Shown here piece by piece: positions 6,985-37,027 of a stretch of DNA of 60,734 bases. The position numbers were made by a program, and so were the translations under genes. This stretch comes from Verrucomicrobiota bacterium (lineage in GTDB: Bacteria; Verrucomicrobiota; Verrucomicrobiia; Chthoniobacterales; UBA10450), in contig QHRO01000240.1 of assembly GCA_003220155.1 (NCBI GenBank), forward strand, positions 1 to 60,734, written 5' to 3'. Every line of letters starts with the position of its first letter. Within the stretch, counting starts at the first letter, position 1. The notes under the pieces were generated by a model, which was not told the DNA's origin, made no database searches, and was given only the letters and a program-made list of their open reading frames with translations.

Positions 6985-7135
6985 AGCAGCCGACACGGCT
7001 GCCAGTACAGGGGAGAGCGGTGCACGAATCATCGATCGCGTGTACCGAGTCTATTTTTTCTGTGGTGGCACGCGTGTCGCGTGCAATTGGTTCAGGTTTG
7101 GTGCAGCGGACACGACTGCCACTACAGGCCCAGCA
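6985..7135. repeat. Cluster of three REP-like hairpins centred on GTGTC/GACAC
   Basis: Three related hairpins lie in the folK-dapB gap: GCAGCCGACACGGCTGC, GCACGCGTGTCGCGTGC and a TGCAGCGGACACGACTGCCA unit. Two are bordered by TACAGG, the complement of CCTGTA, which resembles the GTAG end of family B. The region has no credible ORF. Confidence 0.6.
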
Positions 7136-7841
7136 CATCGCGCATGTCATAAAGCCCCGCCGGTTTTCCGATGATCCACCGCGCCGCGCGCAAGGCACCA
7201 CGCGCGAATGTTTCGCGGTTGCTCGCGCGATGCGTCAGCTCGACCCGCTCACCTTGTCCGGCAAAAATCACGCTATGATCCCCCACCACATCGCCGCCGC
7301 GCACGGAATGAATGCCAATCTCCGATCGCTCGCGCTCGCCAATCATTCCTTCGCGCCCATGCCGCAATTTTTTTGTATTGCATGCGCGCTGCAAAATTTC
7401 TGCGAGCGTTTTCGCCGTTCCACTGGGCGCGTCTTTCTTCATTCGATGATGCGTTTCCACAATTTCGAGGTCGAAGTCGCCACCGAGGACTTTCGCGGCT
7501 TGCTCCGTCAGGGCAAAGAGCGCATTCACCCCGACACTAAAATTTGAGGCGAAGACCACGGCAATTTGTTTGGCGACCGCGGCAATTTCATCGCGCTGTT
7601 TCGTCGAATGCCCGGTGGTTCCGATCACCAATGGTATTTTCGATTTTATCGCCGCGTCGCAAATCGAACGGCTTGCATCTGGATGACTGAAATCAATCAG
7701 CACGTCCGCATCAGCCAGCGCGATTTTATCACCGAGATCAGTCCGGGCCACAACCTCAACGCCTTCGCTTTCGGCGACACCAAGGACCGCCTGCCCCATG
7801 CGGCCGGCCGCGCCGACAAGTGCGATGCGAAGTCTTGTCAT
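7122..7841 (-). CDS. dapB: 4-hydroxy-tetrahydrodipicolinate reductase
   Basis: This enzyme reduces the DapA product with NAD(P)H in the diaminopimelate/lysine pathway. The N-terminal Rossmann motif VGAAGRMGQAV is present, followed by the DFSHPDAS and GTTGHS segments. The catalytic and substrate-binding stretch ETHHRMKKDAPSGTAK lies at about 150-165. The 239-residue length is at the short end of normal. The gene follows dapA on the same strand, with dapF upstream, so three steps of DAP synthesis are clustered. The assignment is secure. Confidence 0.96.
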   Translation of the reverse strand: MTRLRIALVGAAGRMGQAVLGVAESEGVEVVARTDLGDKIALADADVLIDFSHPDASRSICDAAIKSKIPLVIGTTGHSTKQRDEIAAVAKQIAVVFASNFSVGVNALFALTEQAAKVLGGDFDLEIVETHHRMKKDAPSGTAKTLAEILQRACNTKKLRHGREGMIGERERSEIGIHSVRGGDVVGDHSVIFAGQGERVELTHRASNRETFARGALRAARWIIGKPAGLYDMRDVLGL

Positions 7842-7866: not shown

Positions 7867-7931
7867 TGTAGCTGCCGCTGTCTCCAGCGGCAGAACCAGC
7901 AATTCTGCCACCTGTGACGGTGGCAGCTACA
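7867..7931. repeat. REPIN (family B, GTAG...CTAC) between dapA and dapB
   Basis: The element reads TGTAG, hairpin CTGCCGCTGTCTCCAGCGGCAG, a spacer, hairpin CTGCCACCTGTGACGGTGGCAG, and CTACA. This is the inverted-pair architecture known for REPINs. It is the same type as the copy inside the DNA ligase fusion at 35912. Confidence 0.8.
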
Positions 7932-7940
7932 AGTACAGCA

Positions 7941-8816
7941 TTATTTGCGTTCAAATTCCTCCAGGGTCTTGCGCAAACGCGCCTGATTTGCAGCACTCAT
8001 TTCGCAAAGCGGCAATCGCACTTCCGCCGAGATGGTCCCGCGCCACGACAACGCCGTTTTTATCGGCACCGGATTTGGCTCGATAAACAAGTCTTTGAAC
8101 AACCAATAAAGTTTGCGGTGCAATCGCTCCGCCCGCTTGCTGTCGCCGTTGGTGAATGCCTTTACCAGTTCGCACATTTCGCGCGGCAATAAATTCGACG
8201 CGACACTCACCACTCCGACCGCGCCAGCCGCCAAAAACGGAAGAGTCAATCCATCGTCGCCGCTCAAAACCGTGAATGCGTCCGGCAAACGTGTGCGTAA
8301 TTCACTCACCCGATCAACATTCCCCCCGGCTTCCTTGATCGACACAACATTCGGGCAATCGCTCTGGATTCGTGCCACCGTTTCCGCGACGATATCAACG
8401 CCGCAGCGTCCCGGAATATTGTAGAGCATCAGACGGAGCGGAGTGGATTTGGCAATCGCGGAAAAGTGACGAAACAATCCTTCCTGGCTCGGCTTGTTGT
8501 AATACGGCGCAACCAAGAGTGCGCCATCAACACCAAGTTTTTCTGCCTGTTCGGTAGCCGCAATTGCTTCGCGCGTGGAATAGGAGCCGGTTCCGGCAAG
8601 AACCAGGCAACGCCTGTTGGCAGTTTGAATGGCGAACCGAATCACCTCTTTTCGTTCGTCATGAGTGAGCGTGGGCGATTCGCCTGTAGTTCCAACGGCA
8701 ATAATTCCATCGATCCCAGCCGCGATCTGCGATTCGATTAAATTCTGCAGCGCAGTGAAATCAATCGCGCCGTCGCGAAAGGGCGTAACCAAGGCGGTGA
8801 AAGTGCCGCGAAACAT
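7941..8816 (-). CDS. dapA: 4-hydroxy-tetrahydrodipicolinate synthase
   Basis: This lyase condenses pyruvate with aspartate semialdehyde. The 291-residue TIM barrel shows the family blocks: FRGTFTALVTPF at the start, GTTGESPTL, the YYNKPSQEGLFRHF block with the catalytic Tyr region, YNIPGRCGVD, and VSIKEAGGN with the Schiff-base lysine. It lies just before dapB (about 100 bases, filled by a REPIN) and after dapF. The start is unambiguous at MFRGTFTALV. The assignment is secure. Confidence 0.97.
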   Translation of the reverse strand: MFRGTFTALVTPFRDGAIDFTALQNLIESQIAAGIDGIIAVGTTGESPTLTHDERKEVIRFAIQTANRRCLVLAGTGSYSTREAIAATEQAEKLGVDGALLVAPYYNKPSQEGLFRHFSAIAKSTPLRLMLYNIPGRCGVDIVAETVARIQSDCPNVVSIKEAGGNVDRVSELRTRLPDAFTVLSGDDGLTLPFLAAGAVGVVSVASNLLPREMCELVKAFTNGDSKRAERLHRKLYWLFKDLFIEPNPVPIKTALSWRGTISAEVRLPLCEMSAANQARLRKTLEEFERK

Positions 8817-13455: not shown

Positions 13456-13482
13456 TGTAGCCGTCGCGCTCTGCGCGACGCG
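13456..13482 (+). repeat. GTAG-type REP downstream of the RAYT gene
   Basis: TGTAG is followed by the near-perfect hairpin CCGTCGCGCTCTGCGCGACGCGG. It is oriented outward relative to the RAYT gene and pairs with an inverted unit on the other side (14038-14063). Confidence 0.8.
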
Positions 13483-13534
13483 GTATGGGTTAACCTACCT
13501 TGGTGGGGTTGAGCGAAGTGCACTCACGGGAAAC

Positions 13535-14035
13535 CTAGTCACCATAAATCGTTATTAACTCGCCAGCGTACGGCCAATCCTCGACTCTCTCTACCAGCTG
13601 AGCGCGAACTGCATTTTCACGAACGTAATCCCACTTTTGCGCATAACTCTCTTCACTTCTCAAGAGGTGATCAAAGAAACCGCGCTGCCAGACTGGATCG
13701 TGCGACCTACCCGTGGCTATCGCGCCGCCGAGAACACGCTTTAACGTGCCGACCCATTTCCCAAGATTGAAGTCGTCTGGCCCCGCGACAAACAAATGGA
13801 TGTGATCTGGAAGGATTACATAACGACCGACCGCGATTCCAAATTCCCTATGCGCCCGATCGGCGAACTCGATGAACGCAGCGTGAACTTCAGCGCGTGC
13901 GAGAATTGATCGCCTACTATACGTGCAAAAGGTGACGAAAAACAAAGGACTTCGTGAGAAAACCCAATGGAGTCGCGGAGGGGTTCGCGCGAAGCTTTTC
14001 ATTTTTTTCTTTCGAGTTGAAACGTGATCGGGCAT
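13535..14035 (-). CDS. REP-associated tyrosine transposase (RAYT, Y1/HUH family)
   Basis: A 166-residue single-domain HUH nuclease of the IS200/Y1 superfamily in its REP-associated form. The metal-binding HUH motif is in VILPDHIHLFV (about 83-93). The C-terminal helix SYAQKWDYVRENAVRAQLV contains the likely nucleophilic tyrosine and the characteristic ENxVRA pattern of RAYTs. The start may be the first ATG or MKSFAR. Known RAYTs bind the GTAG tetranucleotide and hairpin of REPs and can cut them. Here the gene lies between outward-facing GTAG hairpins at 13456 and 14038, and GTAG elements are common in the window, so it is a good candidate for their mobiliser. No TnpB neighbour or IS ends are seen. 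Confidence 0.9.
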   Translation of the reverse strand: MPDHVSTRKKKMKSFARTPPRLHWVFSRSPLFFVTFCTYSRRSILARAEVHAAFIEFADRAHREFGIAVGRYVILPDHIHLFVAGPDDFNLGKWVGTLKRVLGGAIATGRSHDPVWQRGFFDHLLRSEESYAQKWDYVRENAVRAQLVERVEDWPYAGELITIYGD

Positions 14036-14037
14036 CC

Positions 14038-14063
14038 TGCGCTTCGCAGACCGAAGCGGCTAC
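14038..14063 (-). repeat. GTAG-type REP upstream of the RAYT gene
   Basis: On the minus strand it reads TGTAG then CCGCTTCGGTCTGCGAAGCG, a hairpin. It lies directly beside the RAYT start region and is inverted relative to the unit at 13456. Confidence 0.78.
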
Positions 14064-19854: not shown

Positions 19855-20253
19855 CTAACGAGCAATGCAGCTGTTGCGCAACCAAAACGTACGTGTCCGG
19901 TGATCAGGCAATCGCTGGGAAAAGCGGCTCGTCTCGTTCGAATGCATCAACCCGAGCAGAAGGTCCTGCGCAATCTCTTCCCTCGCCTCCGGCGGCAGAA
20001 TATAGACTTCGACCAGAGCGTTACCGGTGGTGTTGTTTTTCCCGCGAACAATCGCAGTGGTGTTAGCAGCGGGACGAACAATGATGATGCCCGATTCATT
20101 GCTATTGGGCTCAAAGCGCCAAAAGGCTGGCGCACTCCACGGCGCTTCGCGAATTAGAGGCTGCTTCGATCTTGCGCCAGCTTTTGGGTACGGCGGTCTT
20201 CTGCCGCTTTCTGATGGGACGTGCAATGGGGGGTCGATCCTCACTATTTGCAT
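19855..20253 (-). CDS. Hypothetical protein divergent from ftsK
   Basis: An ORF of about 132 residues starting MQIVRIDPPLHVPSE (an earlier ATG at 20283 is possible). The middle part, including PAFWRFEPNSNESGIIIVRP and NALVEVYILPPEAREEIAQDL, has normal amino-acid composition with alternating hydrophobic residues, suggesting a beta-rich domain. It overlaps the 5' end of the annotated ftsK ORF on the other strand. That overlap favours a later ftsK start such as GTG 20344. No family was recognised. It may be spurious. Confidence 0.4.
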   Translation of the reverse strand: MQIVRIDPPLHVPSESGRRPPYPKAGARSKQPLIREAPWSAPAFWRFEPNSNESGIIIVRPAANTTAIVRGKNNTTGNALVEVYILPPEAREEIAQDLLLGLMHSNETSRFSQRLPDHRTRTFWLRNSCIAR

Positions 20254-22770
20254 TTTTTGATTAATCCGTACGAGCCTCGACAAAAGTTGGAATCAAGTAC
20301 GAAGGAAATTGAAACGTGCGCCCGTGGGTTTACTATCGGCACGGTGGCTCGCTCAGCAAAGAACAGCGCGTGGAATGAAGTCTTCGCCATCATTCTACTT
20401 TTCGCTGGGACCCTGCTCTTCTTCGCGCTGATTTCGTATAGCCCGCGCGATCTCCCCTCGTGGGTGCCGTGGAGTTATTTGTCACCGCCAAACCGGCCGC
20501 CGCAAAATTTCATCGGTCCGTTTGGCGCCATTTTCGCGAGCGTGTTCTATCTGCTCATCGGAGCGGCATCCTATTTCCTCGCCGCGGCGCTGCTCGGCTT
20601 CGGCGCCGCCAAACTCTTTTATCCACGTTTGCGGGTGATTGCGCGTCTGCCGTGGATCATTCTCTTCATTGTTTCCGGGGCCTGTCTGTTGCAACTACAA
20701 ACGCGCTACTTCTTTGATTGGAAAAAACTAAACATTCAGGGACCGGGCGGATCGATCGGTTATGTCTTCGGCAAGAAACTCTTGCTCACCGCTATGGGCG
20801 ACGTCGGTTCAATGATTCTTCTGGCCGGCATTTATCTGAGCGCGCTCATTCTCATGACCGGTCTGCGCCCGATCCATCTTGTGCGCGAAACCGTCGGTGG
20901 CATTCGTAATGGCGCCGCTCGTTTTCGCGACTGGCGTTTACGCCGTGAGATGCGTCACGCGGATATCAAGGAGCAGCTGGCGATCAGCGAACGTGAGCTG
21001 GCAAAGCAACGGCGGTCGCTTGAAAAACAGCTGAAGAAAAAGGGCGCAGCCGTTCCAGAGAGAATACTGATCCCGCCGGAAGAACTGGCCGGTCGCCCGA
21101 AACCGAAAGTAGTCGATACCACCGCGCTCCCGGAGGAGGCACTTACGGCGCCGCGCAAAAAACCTTCCCTGGCAGAATTGCGTCCGGCGAAGTCGAAACC
21201 ATCGATCGCGGTGGCCGAAGCGCGAAGATTCGATGCCGAAAATTATGTACTTCCAAGCATTGATTTGCTGGACGAACACGATCCCGAAGGCCGCGGTGGG
21301 GCGGATCCGGCCGAGCTCGAGCAGGTGCAGGCGGTTCTGATCGAAACACTGGGGCAATTTGGTATTGCCGTGGCTGCGGGCGACATTACCAAAGGACCGA
21401 CGATCACGCGTTACGAAGTTTATCCGGCCAAGGGTGTGCGGGTGGACAAAATCGTTTCGCTCGAACGCGATCTGGCGCGTGCGACCCGAGCGGAACGCAT
21501 CAACATTCTGGCCCCAATTCCGGGGAAAGACACGGTCGGGATCGAGATCGCCAACACGCGCAAAATCAAAGTGACCTTGCGCGAATTGATGCAGTCGGCC
21601 GAGTGGGAAGAAGGAAAGAGGCGTTGCAAACTTCCGCTGGCGCTGGGTAAGGACGTTTACGGCAACGTCATCATTGCGGATCTGGCGCAAATGCCGCACC
21701 TGCTCATTGCAGGTACGACCGGGAGCGGCAAGAGCGTTTGCATCAACGCCCTGATCGCGAGCATTCTCTTTCGTTTCACCCCCGAAGAGCTGCGTTTCAT
21801 CATGATCGATCCCAAGGTGGTGGAGATGCAGATCTACGAAAAACTGCCCCACCTCGCTTTCCCGGTGGTGACGGATCCGAAAAAGGTGTTGATCGCTCTG
21901 CGGTGGTTAAGCGACGAAATCGATCGGCGTTATAAGATTTTTGCGCGCGTCGGCGTACGGAACATTACCAGTTTCAACGCCCGGCCACCGAAGAAGACAC
22001 AAAAGGAGTTGGATGATGACATTGTAGCCGGCGTCGCTGACGCCGGCCCCTGGTCAGCGACCGCGGCTACAGAAATCCATGTTCCGCGCGAGGGCGAACT
22101 GGTCATTCCGGACAAGCTGCCATACATCGTACTCATCATCGATGAACTGGCCGATCTGATGCAGACCGCGCCAGCCGACGTGGAAAGCAGCATCGCACGA
22201 ATGGCTGCCATTGCCCGGGCCGCCGGAATTCACCTCATCCTGGCGACCCAAACGCCGCGGGCCGACGTCATCACCGGCGTGATCAAGGCGAACATCCCAA
22301 GCCGCATCGCCTTCCAAGTCGCAAGCAAGATCGATAGCCGCGTCATTCTTGATGAAAATGGCGCGGACCGTTTGCTTGGCCAGGGTGACATGCTTTATCT
22401 GCCTCCGAGCACGTCACGATTAATCCGCGCCCAAGGCGTGCTGGTGACAGACGATGAGATTCGAGAGCTGGTCGATTTTGTTTCCGGGCAAGGAGGTCCG
22501 GCCTTTGACAGCGCGATGCAGGACAGATTGCAATCGGGTGCAACTCCGGTTGAGGAGGTTACCGAGGAAGACGAAGAACTGGTGGAGAAATGTCTTGAGG
22601 TTATTCGCCAGGAAAAGCGAGCCTCAACTTCCCTGTTGCAGCGCCGGCTTCGACTTGGGTATACCAGGGCTGCGCGCATCGTTGATATTCTTGAGCAGCG
22701 CGGTATTTTAGGTCCCGGCGAAGGCGCGAAGCCGCGCGAGATTCTGGTCGATCTCGACGCCGCTGTTTAA
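20221..22770 (+). CDS. ftsK: DNA translocase FtsK/SpoIIIE
   Basis: A septal DNA pump that clears chromosomes during division. Four membrane helices lie at about residues 50-225. A charged coiled-coil linker follows (about 235-285), then the motor with Walker A AGTTGSGKS (about 497-505) and Walker B IVLIIDELADL (about 634). The C terminus is the winged-helix gamma domain (EDEELVEKCLEVIRQ...RILVDL-type end). The annotated ATG is doubtful, since the first 40 residues are unlike FtsK; GTG 20344 (VARSAKNSAWNE) is an alternative. Residues about 602-617 (VAGVADAGPWSATAAT) are encoded by an in-frame REPIN just before the Walker B strand. rodZ follows 15 bases after the stop. Confidence 0.94.
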   Translation: MQWGVDPHYLHFLINPYEPRQKLESSTKEIETCARGFTIGTVARSAKNSAWNEVFAIILLFAGTLLFFALISYSPRDLPSWVPWSYLSPPNRPPQNFIGPFGAIFASVFYLLIGAASYFLAAALLGFGAAKLFYPRLRVIARLPWIILFIVSGACLLQLQTRYFFDWKKLNIQGPGGSIGYVFGKKLLLTAMGDVGSMILLAGIYLSALILMTGLRPIHLVRETVGGIRNGAARFRDWRLRREMRHADIKEQLAISERELAKQRRSLEKQLKKKGAAVPERILIPPEELAGRPKPKVVDTTALPEEALTAPRKKPSLAELRPAKSKPSIAVAEARRFDAENYVLPSIDLLDEHDPEGRGGADPAELEQVQAVLIETLGQFGIAVAAGDITKGPTITRYEVYPAKGVRVDKIVSLERDLARATRAERINILAPIPGKDTVGIEIANTRKIKVTLRELMQSAEWEEGKRRCKLPLALGKDVYGNVIIADLAQMPHLLIAGTTGSGKSVCINALIASILFRFTPEELRFIMIDPKVVEMQIYEKLPHLAFPVVTDPKKVLIALRWLSDEIDRRYKIFARVGVRNITSFNARPPKKTQKELDDDIVAGVADAGPWSATAATEIHVPREGELVIPDKLPYIVLIIDELADLMQTAPADVESSIARMAAIARAAGIHLILATQTPRADVITGVIKANIPSRIAFQVASKIDSRVILDENGADRLLGQGDMLYLPPSTSRLIRAQGVLVTDDEIRELVDFVSGQGGPAFDSAMQDRLQSGATPVEEVTEEDEELVEKCLEVIRQEKRASTSLLQRRLRLGYTRAARIVDILEQRGILGPGEGAKPREILVDLDAAV
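22023..22071. repeat. REPIN (family B) inside the ftsK coding region, in frame
   Basis: TGTAG is followed by the perfect hairpin CCGGCGTCGCTGACGCCGG, then CCCC, an imperfect right half, and CTACA. It is 49 bases long with the ends typical of the intergenic copies. The reading frame stays open through it (T-GTA-GCC ... GCT-ACA). Confidence 0.8.
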
Positions 22771-34142: not shown

Positions 34143-36983
34143 GTGATCGATGTTCGATACGAGCGTGGCGTTTTTTTGCCGCAACAAAATCTCTGGCTCG
34201 ACCCGTGGGAAGCTAAGGAGTTCGCTTTCGTTTCTCACGCCCACATCGATCACATTGCACCGCATCGTGAGATTATCGTCTCGGAACGGACCGCGCGCTT
34301 GATGCGAGCGCGGCTGGCGGGAAAACGCAAGGAAATCATCCTGCCATTCGGCCAGGAAAAGGATGTCCGGGGAATGCAGGTGACCCTGTTTCCGGCCGGT
34401 CATATTTTTGGTTCGGCCCAACTCTTTTTGCGCACTGAGAATGATTCGCTGCTTTACACCGGCGATTTCAAATTGCGCCGGGGTCAATCGGCCGAGCCCG
34501 CGGAATGGACGGCGGCCAGCACCCTGATTATGGAAACAACCTATGGCATTCCGCGTTATCGCCTTCCGCCGACCGAGGAAGTGATCGCGCAAATTATCGC
34601 TTTTTGCCGCGATGCGATCGAGAACGATGAAGTTCCGGTGCTACTCGGCTATTCGTTGGGCAAAGCGCAGGAAATCCTTTGTGCCCTCGCCGGAGCCGAT
34701 CTCACACCGATGCTGCACGGTTCGGTTTATCAAATGACGCGTATCTACGAACAATACGACCAGGAATTTTGCCAATACCTTCGTTATCATCCGAATGATC
34801 TCGCCGGCAAAGTTCTGATTTGTCCGCCGAGTGCGAATCGCTCGCGCATGCTTGAGAAAATTCCGCGCAAACGCGTAGCCATGATCAGCGGCTGGGCGGT
34901 CGATCCGAACGCGATTTATCGTTATCAGGTCGACGCGGCATTCCCACTGTCCGATCACGCCGACTACGATGATCTGCTGCGCTACGTCGAGCTGGTGGGA
35001 CCGAAACGGGTTTTCACTTTGCACGGATTCGCCGCGCAATTTGCGCGCGATCTACGCGCGCGCGGGATCGAGGCGTGGGCGTTGACCGAAGAAAATCAGA
35101 TGGAGCTCACGCTTGGGACGTCTCCTGCGCAATTACCCGACATCGCCGTCACCGTCTCAATCGCAGAATCAAATGGTCTGCCGCCAGTGATGGCGGCAGC
35201 TACAACGGCAACTCCGTCGGAATTTCTCGGGTTCGCGAATGTTGGCCAGGCCATTGCAGCGACCCCGGCGAAGCTCGAGAAGGTCCGTCTGTTGGCAGAA
35301 TATTTCTCGTCGATCGATGACGAGCGACTCGCCATCGCCACGGTTTATTTTACCGGTCATGCCTTTCCGCAAACCGATCTGCGCACGTTGCAAGTGGGGG
35401 GCTCCGTCATTTACCGCGCCCTTGGCGGCGCGGCAAAAATCAGCGACGCAGAATTTCGACGCATTGCTCACAGTCATGGCGACGCCGGTAAAACTGCGTT
35501 TGATGTACTCGATGGTCGCACCGTTTCGGAGCCTTTCGGTATTACCGATTCCTACAAGTTTTTTGAACAACTCCAGAAACTGCGTGGACCTGTAGCGAAA
35601 AAGGAGGCACTGCAAAATCGCCTGGCGCAACTCTCTGCGCGGGAAGGTCAATATGTGGTCAAGATTCTCACCGGCGATCTACGCATCGGATTACGCGAAG
35701 GCCTGGTCGAGGAAGCAATTGCCAGGGCGTTCAATGTTCCGCTCGATGAGGTAAAGGAAGCGAACATGCTCCTCGGCGATATCGGACGCACCGCGGTTCT
35801 GGCAAAAAATAACGAGCTGGAGCGGGCGGAGCTTTCGCTCTTTCGCCCCATCAAATGCATGCTCGCCAGTCCTGAACCAACCGCCGAAGCAATCTGGAAA
35901 CGATTCGTCGATGTAGCTGTCGGTGTCTCTGCGGCAGAACCTAAAAACCTGCTGTCAGAGACGGTGGCAGCTACAACACCGGTAGCTAAAAGGTCGCCAC
36001 CTACTGTATACGTCGAAGACAAATTCGATGGCATTCGCGCGCAACTGCATGCCAGCCGGACACGTTCCGAAATCTTTTCACGCGATCTCAAGCGTATCAC
36101 CGGCCAATTTCCCGAAATTGCCGAGCAGGCGCGCCAATTTTCAGAGGAAGTAATTCTGGATGGCGAGATCATCGCCTTTGCCGAGGATCGGAAGCTGACA
36201 TTCTTCGATTTGCAGAAACGACTTGGGCGAAAAACCGACGCGCTCGAGTTATTTGAGACTTCCTCGGCCGACGTGCCGGTAATATTTGTTGCCTTCGATC
36301 TATTGTTTTTGGACGACCGTTCCTTGTTGAGAACTGCGCTGCGGGAGCGACGGGACCTTTTGCGCGGTTTAAAGCTGCCACCGAAATTTCAGATCGCGTC
36401 CGTGGTGGCAGCGCATTCCGCTAACGAGATCGAGAGCGAATTCAAGCGCGCGCGGCTGCGTTTGAACGAAGGGCTCATGGTCAAGAATCCGCAAAGTTTT
36501 TATTCGCCGGGACGGCGCGGGATGTTCTGGTTCAAGCTGAAGAAGGAGCTGGCGACGCTCGATGTCGTGGTCGTGGGAGCCGAGCTTGGCCACGGAAAAA
36601 GAAATCACGTGCTCAGCGATTACACCTTTGCCGTGCGCGATGAAAGCAGCGGCGAATTATTACCAATCGGCAAAGCTTATAGCGGACTGACCGATGCCGA
36701 AATCGCCGAGCTGACCGAGCATTTCAAAGACAACACCCTGGTTGAGCACGGGCGCTATCGCGAAGTGAAACCAGACATCGTCCTGGAAGTTGCCTTCAAT
36801 TCCATTCAACCAAGCACGCGCCACTCCAGCGGACTCGCCTTGCGTTTTCCCCGGATCAAAGCCATTCGGCGCGACAAAACGATCGAAAATATCGACACCC
36901 TAGCATACGCGCAGCAGTTAGCGGCGGAACAAAATCACCGTCATCCCGAGCGTAGTCGAGGGATCCCGCCGCGAAATCTTTAA
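34143..36983 (+). CDS. Metallo-beta-lactamase-fold exonuclease fused to ATP-dependent DNA ligase
   Basis: Residues 1-330 form a beta-CASP metallo-beta-lactamase nuclease (SHAHIDHIAPH metal motif; YTGDFKLRRG; DHADYDDL), the type annotated as ligase-associated exonuclease. Residues about 360-935 form an ATP-dependent DNA ligase. It has an all-alpha DNA-binding domain, the nucleotidyl lysine in EDKFDGIRAQ (K627), DGEIIAF, VAFDLLFLD, EGLMVKNP and WFKLKKE. The start is GTG. The two activities are usually separate adjacent genes, so this is a natural fusion for DNA repair. Residues about 346-355 and 590-611 are encoded by REP elements in interdomain linkers. The last 14 residues (RHPERSRGIPPRNL) come from a family A palindrome. 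Confidence 0.92.
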   Translation: MIDVRYERGVFLPQQNLWLDPWEAKEFAFVSHAHIDHIAPHREIIVSERTARLMRARLAGKRKEIILPFGQEKDVRGMQVTLFPAGHIFGSAQLFLRTENDSLLYTGDFKLRRGQSAEPAEWTAASTLIMETTYGIPRYRLPPTEEVIAQIIAFCRDAIENDEVPVLLGYSLGKAQEILCALAGADLTPMLHGSVYQMTRIYEQYDQEFCQYLRYHPNDLAGKVLICPPSANRSRMLEKIPRKRVAMISGWAVDPNAIYRYQVDAAFPLSDHADYDDLLRYVELVGPKRVFTLHGFAAQFARDLRARGIEAWALTEENQMELTLGTSPAQLPDIAVTVSIAESNGLPPVMAAATTATPSEFLGFANVGQAIAATPAKLEKVRLLAEYFSSIDDERLAIATVYFTGHAFPQTDLRTLQVGGSVIYRALGGAAKISDAEFRRIAHSHGDAGKTAFDVLDGRTVSEPFGITDSYKFFEQLQKLRGPVAKKEALQNRLAQLSAREGQYVVKILTGDLRIGLREGLVEEAIARAFNVPLDEVKEANMLLGDIGRTAVLAKNNELERAELSLFRPIKCMLASPEPTAEAIWKRFVDVAVGVSAAEPKNLLSETVAATTPVAKRSPPTVYVEDKFDGIRAQLHASRTRSEIFSRDLKRITGQFPEIAEQARQFSEEVILDGEIIAFAEDRKLTFFDLQKRLGRKTDALELFETSSADVPVIFVAFDLLFLDDRSLLRTALRERRDLLRGLKLPPKFQIASVVAAHSANEIESEFKRARLRLNEGLMVKNPQSFYSPGRRGMFWFKLKKELATLDVVVVGAELGHGKRNHVLSDYTFAVRDESSGELLPIGKAYSGLTDAEIAELTEHFKDNTLVEHGRYREVKPDIVLEVAFNSIQPSTRHSSGLALRFPRIKAIRRDKTIENIDTLAYAQQLAAEQNHRHPERSRGIPPRNL
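35177..35204 (-). repeat. Single GTAG-type REP inside the nuclease-ligase gene (in frame)
   Basis: CTGCCGCCAGTGATGGCGGCAG-CTACA is a hairpin with its GTAG end on the minus strand. It encodes LPPVMAAATT in the linker between nuclease and ligase. Confidence 0.7.
35912..35975. repeat. REPIN (family B) inside the nuclease-ligase gene (in frame)
   Basis: It reads TGTAG-CTGTCGGTGTCTCTGCGGCAG, then a spacer, then CTGTCAGAGACGGTGGCAG-CTACA. It encodes VAVGVSAAEPKNLLSETVAAT between the ligase DNA-binding and adenylation domains. Confidence 0.8.
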
Positions 36984-37023
36984 GGGTAGTTCAACGGGAT
37001 CCCTCGACTTCGCTCGGGATGAC
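36940..37023. repeat. Family A palindrome at the 3' end of the nuclease-ligase gene
   Basis: The ends are GTCATCCCGAGCGTAGTCGAGGGATCCC and GGGATCCCTCGACTTCGCTCGGGATGAC. It supplies the stop codon of the ligase and sits between convergent genes, where it could act as a bidirectional terminator. Confidence 0.85.
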
Positions 37024-37027
37024 GAAC

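Follow-up and report, generated by a model that had tools for sequence, protein, structure and literature searches.

Palindromes of the GTAG REP type have been found inside open reading frames, singly or as dimers, and read in frame (PMC3733652, BMC Genomics 2013;14:522). In the main text of that study, the verrucomicrobial species Opitutus terrae has the highest number of in-ORF GTAG REPs, including two in uvrA and a DNA ligase copy. The same account describes recB of two Xanthomonas species as struck at about the same site, and proposes that the peptides encoded by GTAG REPs in housekeeping and repair genes act as flexible linkers. The classic case of in-frame palindromes in many unrelated genes is that of the Rickettsia palindromic elements (RPE; PMC10969869). 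In Pseudomonas, inverted REP pairs (REPINs) are described as mobile units tied to RAYT (REP-associated tyrosine transposase) genes (PMC3116915).

Here, a DNA ligase gene with an in-frame REPIN is examined in a window of 60,734 nucleotides, which is the whole stretch of DNA analysed, from a genome (G000) closely related to soil Chthoniobacterales MAGs, of which some bear the label Candidatus Udaeobacter. As in the main text of the 2013 study (PMC3733652), housekeeping and repair genes carry the palindromes in frame and, as in the published description of Pseudomonas REPINs (PMC3116915), inverted REP pairs form units, presumably mobile, that are associated with RAYT genes. Compared by description, RPEs are about 150 bp long (PMC10969869), whereas the present elements are mostly 47–78 bp and consist of inverted GTAG pairs or single halves; unlike RPEs, they belong to a lineage from soil that has RAYT genes. 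They differ from the Pseudomonas system, as there described, in that about a fifth of strict half-sites are intragenic (33 of 155 in the stretches of G000), that three classes occur, and that no RAYT was found for class A. Beyond the main text of PMC3733652, the reading phase is counted here against the frames that are open, empty sites are given, and a single ligase linker is seen to be filled by differing classes. A term search of that main text gives no reading-phase analysis, although its supplementary residue table may show phase uniformity. In-frame GTAG REPs have been known since 2013, and what looks new relative to that text is the phase rule, together with the way in which one ligase linker has been filled again and again.

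The gene encodes a ligase-associated exonuclease (MBL-like) fused to an ATP-dependent DNA ligase (Table 1). Pfam matches comprise RMMBL, DNA_ligase_A_N (residues 361–527), DNA_ligase_A_M (613–800) and DNA_ligase_A_C, and among NCBIfam models DNA_lig_bact, PRK09247 and Xnuc_lig_assoc match best, all below curated cut-offs. The first-pass annotation had placed a full GTAG...CTAC element directly upstream of the nucleotidyl lysine motif, and this holds. At 62 nt, the element comprises a full inverted pair of GTAG-tagged hairpins. It lies in the linker that joins the ligase N domain to the adenylation domain, and its in-frame translation, VAVGVSAAEPKNLLSETVAAT, stands about 15 codons N-terminal of the KFDG motif with its nucleotidyl lysine K627. 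Its RNA folds into a single long hairpin (-42 kcal/mol). Between residues 587 and 625, 25 aligned ligases share zero invariant columns. An AlphaFold model of moderate quality (mean pLDDT 66), used solely to mark low confidence in both linkers, falls below 50 at residues 590–618 and at 315–356, the latter being the exonuclease–ligase linker. This linker holds a second, decayed class A REPIN, absent from the earlier annotation and read in the same phase; its right half (35178–35203) is clear and its left half eroded, the left arm being better kept in G002 and G008.

Table 1. Features of the window, with positions counted from its first nucleotide.
Feature	Position	Strand	Evidence or remark
Intergenic class A REPIN between dapB (7122–7841) and dapA (7941–8816)	7868..7930	+	
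GTAG hairpin flanking the RAYT gene	13457..13480	+	
RAYT (REP-associated tyrosine transposase), 166 aa	13535..14035	-	NF047646, 101.4 bits against a cut-off of 80; Pfam Y1_Tnp
GTAG hairpin on the other side of the RAYT gene, inverted	14040..14063	-	
Class C REPIN in ftsK (ORF 20221–22770), VAGVADAGPWSATAAT, same entry phase as the ligase copy	22024..22070	+	FtsK domains
ORF, exonuclease–ligase fusion, 946 aa	34143..36983	+	Pfam; NCBIfam below cut-offs
Decayed class A REPIN (DIAVTVSIAESNGLPPVMAAATT), exonuclease–ligase linker (approximate ends)	35139..35205	+	Repeat family D6; pLDDT < 50
Class A REPIN of the ligase, GTAG start to CTAC end, residues 591–611	35913..35974	+	Repeat match; low-pLDDT linker; empty in several relatives
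Left half of the ligase REPIN, entry phase 0 (GTA-GCT)	35913..35937	+	Partly decayed relative to GTAGCTGCCGCCGTCTCCGGCGGCAG
Right half of the ligase REPIN, class A, exit phase R1 (GCT AC)	35949..35974	-	4 mismatches

GTAG half-sites were sorted into three classes, A (GTAGCTGCCGCCGTC), B (GTAGCGGCGGTCTATGACCGCCG) and C (GTAGCCGCGGTCGCTGACCGCGG). The right arm of the ligase REPIN, TTGTAGCTGCCACCGTC, matches the class A half-site, taken as a short pattern, at every position. This short pattern has 32 sites in its own genome at up to two mismatches, against 7 with a reversed control; classes B and C give 88 and 53 sites, with 0 for their controls, and controls for longer half-site patterns likewise give 0. 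The ligase element carries a GTAG-tagged hairpin, is repeated in the genome and has two inverted REPs per unit, as GTAG REPs and REPINs do. It had also been noted that the ftsK copy is read in the same frame, and the two copies do share the phase GTA-GCN, although the ftsK copy belongs to class C and the ligase copy to class A. Interdomain linkers vary anyway, and the segment might be ordinary ligase sequence that resembles a repeat by chance, but the inverted arms match intergenic copies, the longer controls return nothing and the site is empty in relatives, so that the probability of this reading is practically negligible.

The history of the linker can be followed in related ligases. Element-free linkers have 8–10 residues in the ligases of G001, G016, G019 and G036 and 6–7 in L314 and L364, and empty linkers range overall from 6 to 16 residues in several relatives, so the segment is not conserved in repeat-free ligases. 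Because several relatives have a short linker with no element, the ligase segment is, by comparison of sequences, an insertion rather than conserved ligase sequence. The class A insert is common to the ligases of G000, G002, G003, G005 and G008, with an additional class C element in G003. Class A elements occupy other points of the linker in G014/G032 and in G004 (L352), while the linker of G022 has class C and that of G009 class C together with a decayed class A. The exonuclease–ligase linker has been filled in a similar fashion, by class A in G000, G002, G003 and G008, class C in G005 and G009, a class A-like element in G010, and in G019 (L073) by a different palindrome, class D, which is in frame as SVIPSAVEGSR. 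The differing points, the differing classes and the empty congeners suggest that several of these insertions were independent.

Filled and empty sites among relatives, which reflect insertion or loss, are also found in UvrD and DnaE. According to the search summaries, UvrD aligns with G001 DNA at residues 22–480 and then 513–713 with only 27 nt between, the break falling at the REPIN, and DnaE aligns with G007 at 82–399 and then 421–746 on abutting DNA. In G007, class A half-sites were absent at three mismatches, as were the exact class C variants searched. This genome may have lost these REPs, and may serve as an empty-site reference.

The repeated filling of the ligase linker in several lineages, of the exonuclease–ligase linker likewise, and the presence of elements in E2 lipoyl/E3-binding proteins could indicate that REPINs are ready-made linker cassettes, and that the REPIN peptide was selected because its length or flexibility improves the ligase. 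The amino-acid sequence of the insert, however, changes fast: its pN/pS is 0.28–0.95 against 0.05–0.18 for flanking codons among four congeners, a ratio that is imprecise for some 22 codons. In addition, G008 has swapped part of its insert for another palindrome, and many relatives have no insert at all. Selection for the peptide is therefore very unlikely. The insert probably behaves as flexible, disordered filler that is tolerated in the linker, and the ligase would gain no benefit from it.

Mobility of the elements would be provided by RAYT transposases, whose genes are found next to REPs. At positions 13457–14063 of the window, inverted GTAG hairpins border a RAYT gene on either side, and the whole is a complete REPtron-like unit. 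Y1_Tnp has ten matches in G000; the RAYT gene on C351 is flanked by class B REPs, and on C182 class C halves lie at the 3' end of the gene and beyond it. A class A half was found near none of the ten matches in this MAG, which comprises 354 contigs; the gene concerned may be missing from it. For class A, this counts against the proposed mobilisation.

A frame census of intragenic copies, as proposed in the first-pass annotation, shows that such copies are common and that their phases are nonrandom. About 1.4 Mb of the 3.35 Mb genome was read, in stretches picked for containing elements, so that the counts do not give a genome-wide density. In this sample, 29 ORFs contain an element in frame, and 27 of them have Pfam matches. 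They include UvrD, UvrA, DnaE, DnaX, an MgsA-type AAA ATPase, FtsK, an ileS-like synthetase and MiaA, and further MnmA, a Sua5 protein, MetH, a PurL-like protein, E2 acyltransferases and acetyl-CoA synthetase.

For the phase comparison, 339 half-sites with up to three mismatches were collected from G000 and congeners. A half was called intragenic when its frame was open through the half for at least 60 codons, with a coding score on both sides; this score was computed from the flanks alone and so favours no phase of the element. Gene calls by codon score and open frame are weak for the antisense in-phase frame, which scores high, hence the Pfam backing. Intragenic halves were clustered by the similarity of their flanking protein into 39 gene-sites, although BLAST clustering of orthologues may merge or split sites. 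Half-sites with 5–6 mismatches were left out of the statistics, and some of the in-gene matches (IAAAADRS, REVCERGY) may be chance. Phase-1 GTAGC strings in the ligase linkers L318 and L355 were not counted; that of L318 looks as if a Phe codon next to AGC had turned into TGT by chance. Phases were weighted by the openness of each frame, in place of an unweighted first estimate.

An intact left half is present at 26 of the independent gene-sites within the genus, and at all 26 it is read in phase 0 (GTA-GCN). In other genera the same holds for 10 of 10 left-half sites, some of which may be orthologous to those of the genus, and relaxed thresholds at the level of halves give 49 in phase 0 and 3 in phase 1. 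Among copies that lie outside genes, 98–100% have an open phase 0 and, in all classes, 6–8% an open phase 2. Phase 1 is open there in 95% of class A, 10–12% of class B and 78–85% of class C copies, the last share being inflated in the congener sample, which was searched with phase-1-open variants (G000 alone 78%). At 18 of the 26 left-half gene-sites, phase 1 is open in the element's own sequence and is never used, which has a chance of 4e-6 if the two phases are taken 1:1. For whole REPINs outside genes, the open fractions in phases 0/1/2 are 0.74/0.58/0.03 for class A and 0.71/0.43/0.14 for class C (seven REPINs); with these weights, 10/10 and 13/13 in phase 0 give a joint p of about 1e-6. 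Right halves of class C leave in R1 at 6 gene-sites and in R2 at 8, and R0 is unused in these 14 genus site counts even though 98% open.

By consensus translation, the open frames that go unused are rich in Arg and Cys (SCRRLRRQ and CRRRRRQL in class A, SRGRxPR and RGQRPRL in class C), and those in use are bland and rich in Ala, Val, Gly and Pro (VAAAVSGG, LPPETAAA, AAGDGGSY, VAAVADR, PRSATAA). The avoidance of Arg-rich frames is strong, but not absolute: R0 is in use among the right halves of class B (GGHRPPLQ), and other genera have a single class C copy read in R0.

Stop codons contribute much of this pattern. The TAG of GTAG closes one phase, and class B and some class C copies have a second phase closed by a TGA, so that much of the phase agreement arises without selection. 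It could be argued that the TAG and the loop TGA by themselves leave one readable phase, with no peptide selection required. Phase 2 is rarely open in any class, phase 1 rarely in class B, and a GCTGAC loop shuts phase 1 in those class C copies that have one. Class B is fully accounted for by stops, as is part of class C; the ftsK copy falls in this part, its GTAG half having a GCTGAC loop. As a complete account this is nonetheless improbable, and for class A it is already contradicted: phase 1 is mostly open in classes A and C outside genes, 18 gene-sites are open but unused in their own sequence, and class C R0 goes unread in the genus. An open yet unused phase 1 in class A and most of class C points to selection against its peptide, and purifying selection against the Arg/Cys-rich peptide would be the cause of the disuse.

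RAYT-type enzymes recognise short sequences. The transposase target might accordingly have a biased codon position, so that the phase recurs before any selection, and the single phase of every left half across several genes and genera is what this would predict. It is quite improbable, given that class C right halves split their exits between R1 and R2 and that the host genes are unrelated.

The reading we prefer, and consider quite probable, is that the ligase segment is a mobile class A REPIN tolerated in frame as a linker, and that the shared phase reflects survivorship. A non-autonomous class A REPIN would have inserted into the exonuclease–ligase coding sequence in the ancestor of a few congeners, as part of widespread insertion of REPINs mobilised by RAYT transposases encoded beside REPs. 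The copies would then pass through a sieve. An element must keep the frame of its host unshifted; the TAG of GTAG would close entry phase 2, and in class B and some class C copies the loop TGA would shut phase 1. In class A and most of class C, where phase 1 is open, its Arg/Cys-rich peptide would almost never be retained. What would remain is phase 0 (VAAAV.GG, VAAVADRG) with exits R1 and R2 (LPPETAAAT, AAxGDRGY), all of them bland peptides. It is unlikely that the REPINs themselves evolved one open, bland, Ala/Val/Gly-rich entry frame per GTAG half, tolerable in essential genes. The earlier suggestion, that a phase shared by independent genes reflects selection or a design that leaves an open frame, is supported to the extent that stop-closed frames and, presumably, selection on the peptide both contribute.

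These observations provide a countable rule for the persistence of mobile palindromes in essential genes. Stops close at least one of the six frames, peptide chemistry appears to exclude others, and the same few remain. The 2013 account of REP-decorated repair genes becomes testable, with selection set against biased insertion. The ligase linker itself is a natural series, in which different elements have been inserted into one protein hinge.

In three E2-type acyltransferases (L082:7452-8222, L089:8886-10034 and L092:1-936), class C REPs lie in or near interdomain linkers; these join lipoyl, E3-binding and catalytic domains and are another recurrent linker site. A tRNA synthetase ORF with an IleRS-like zinc finger (L084:10599-12866) has two in-frame REPINs, of classes B and C. 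The palindrome that replaces part of the REPIN in linker 2 of the G008 ligase (L052) is short (CCCGAAAGCTTTCGGG) and encodes VPKAFG, a peptide also present in linker 1 of L331 and L334. Lastly, a class D palindrome (GTCATCCCGAGCG...) at positions 36940–37024 of the window encodes the C-terminal tail of the ligase, RHPERSRGIPPRNL, together with the stop codon, and is the third repeat-derived stretch of this ORF.
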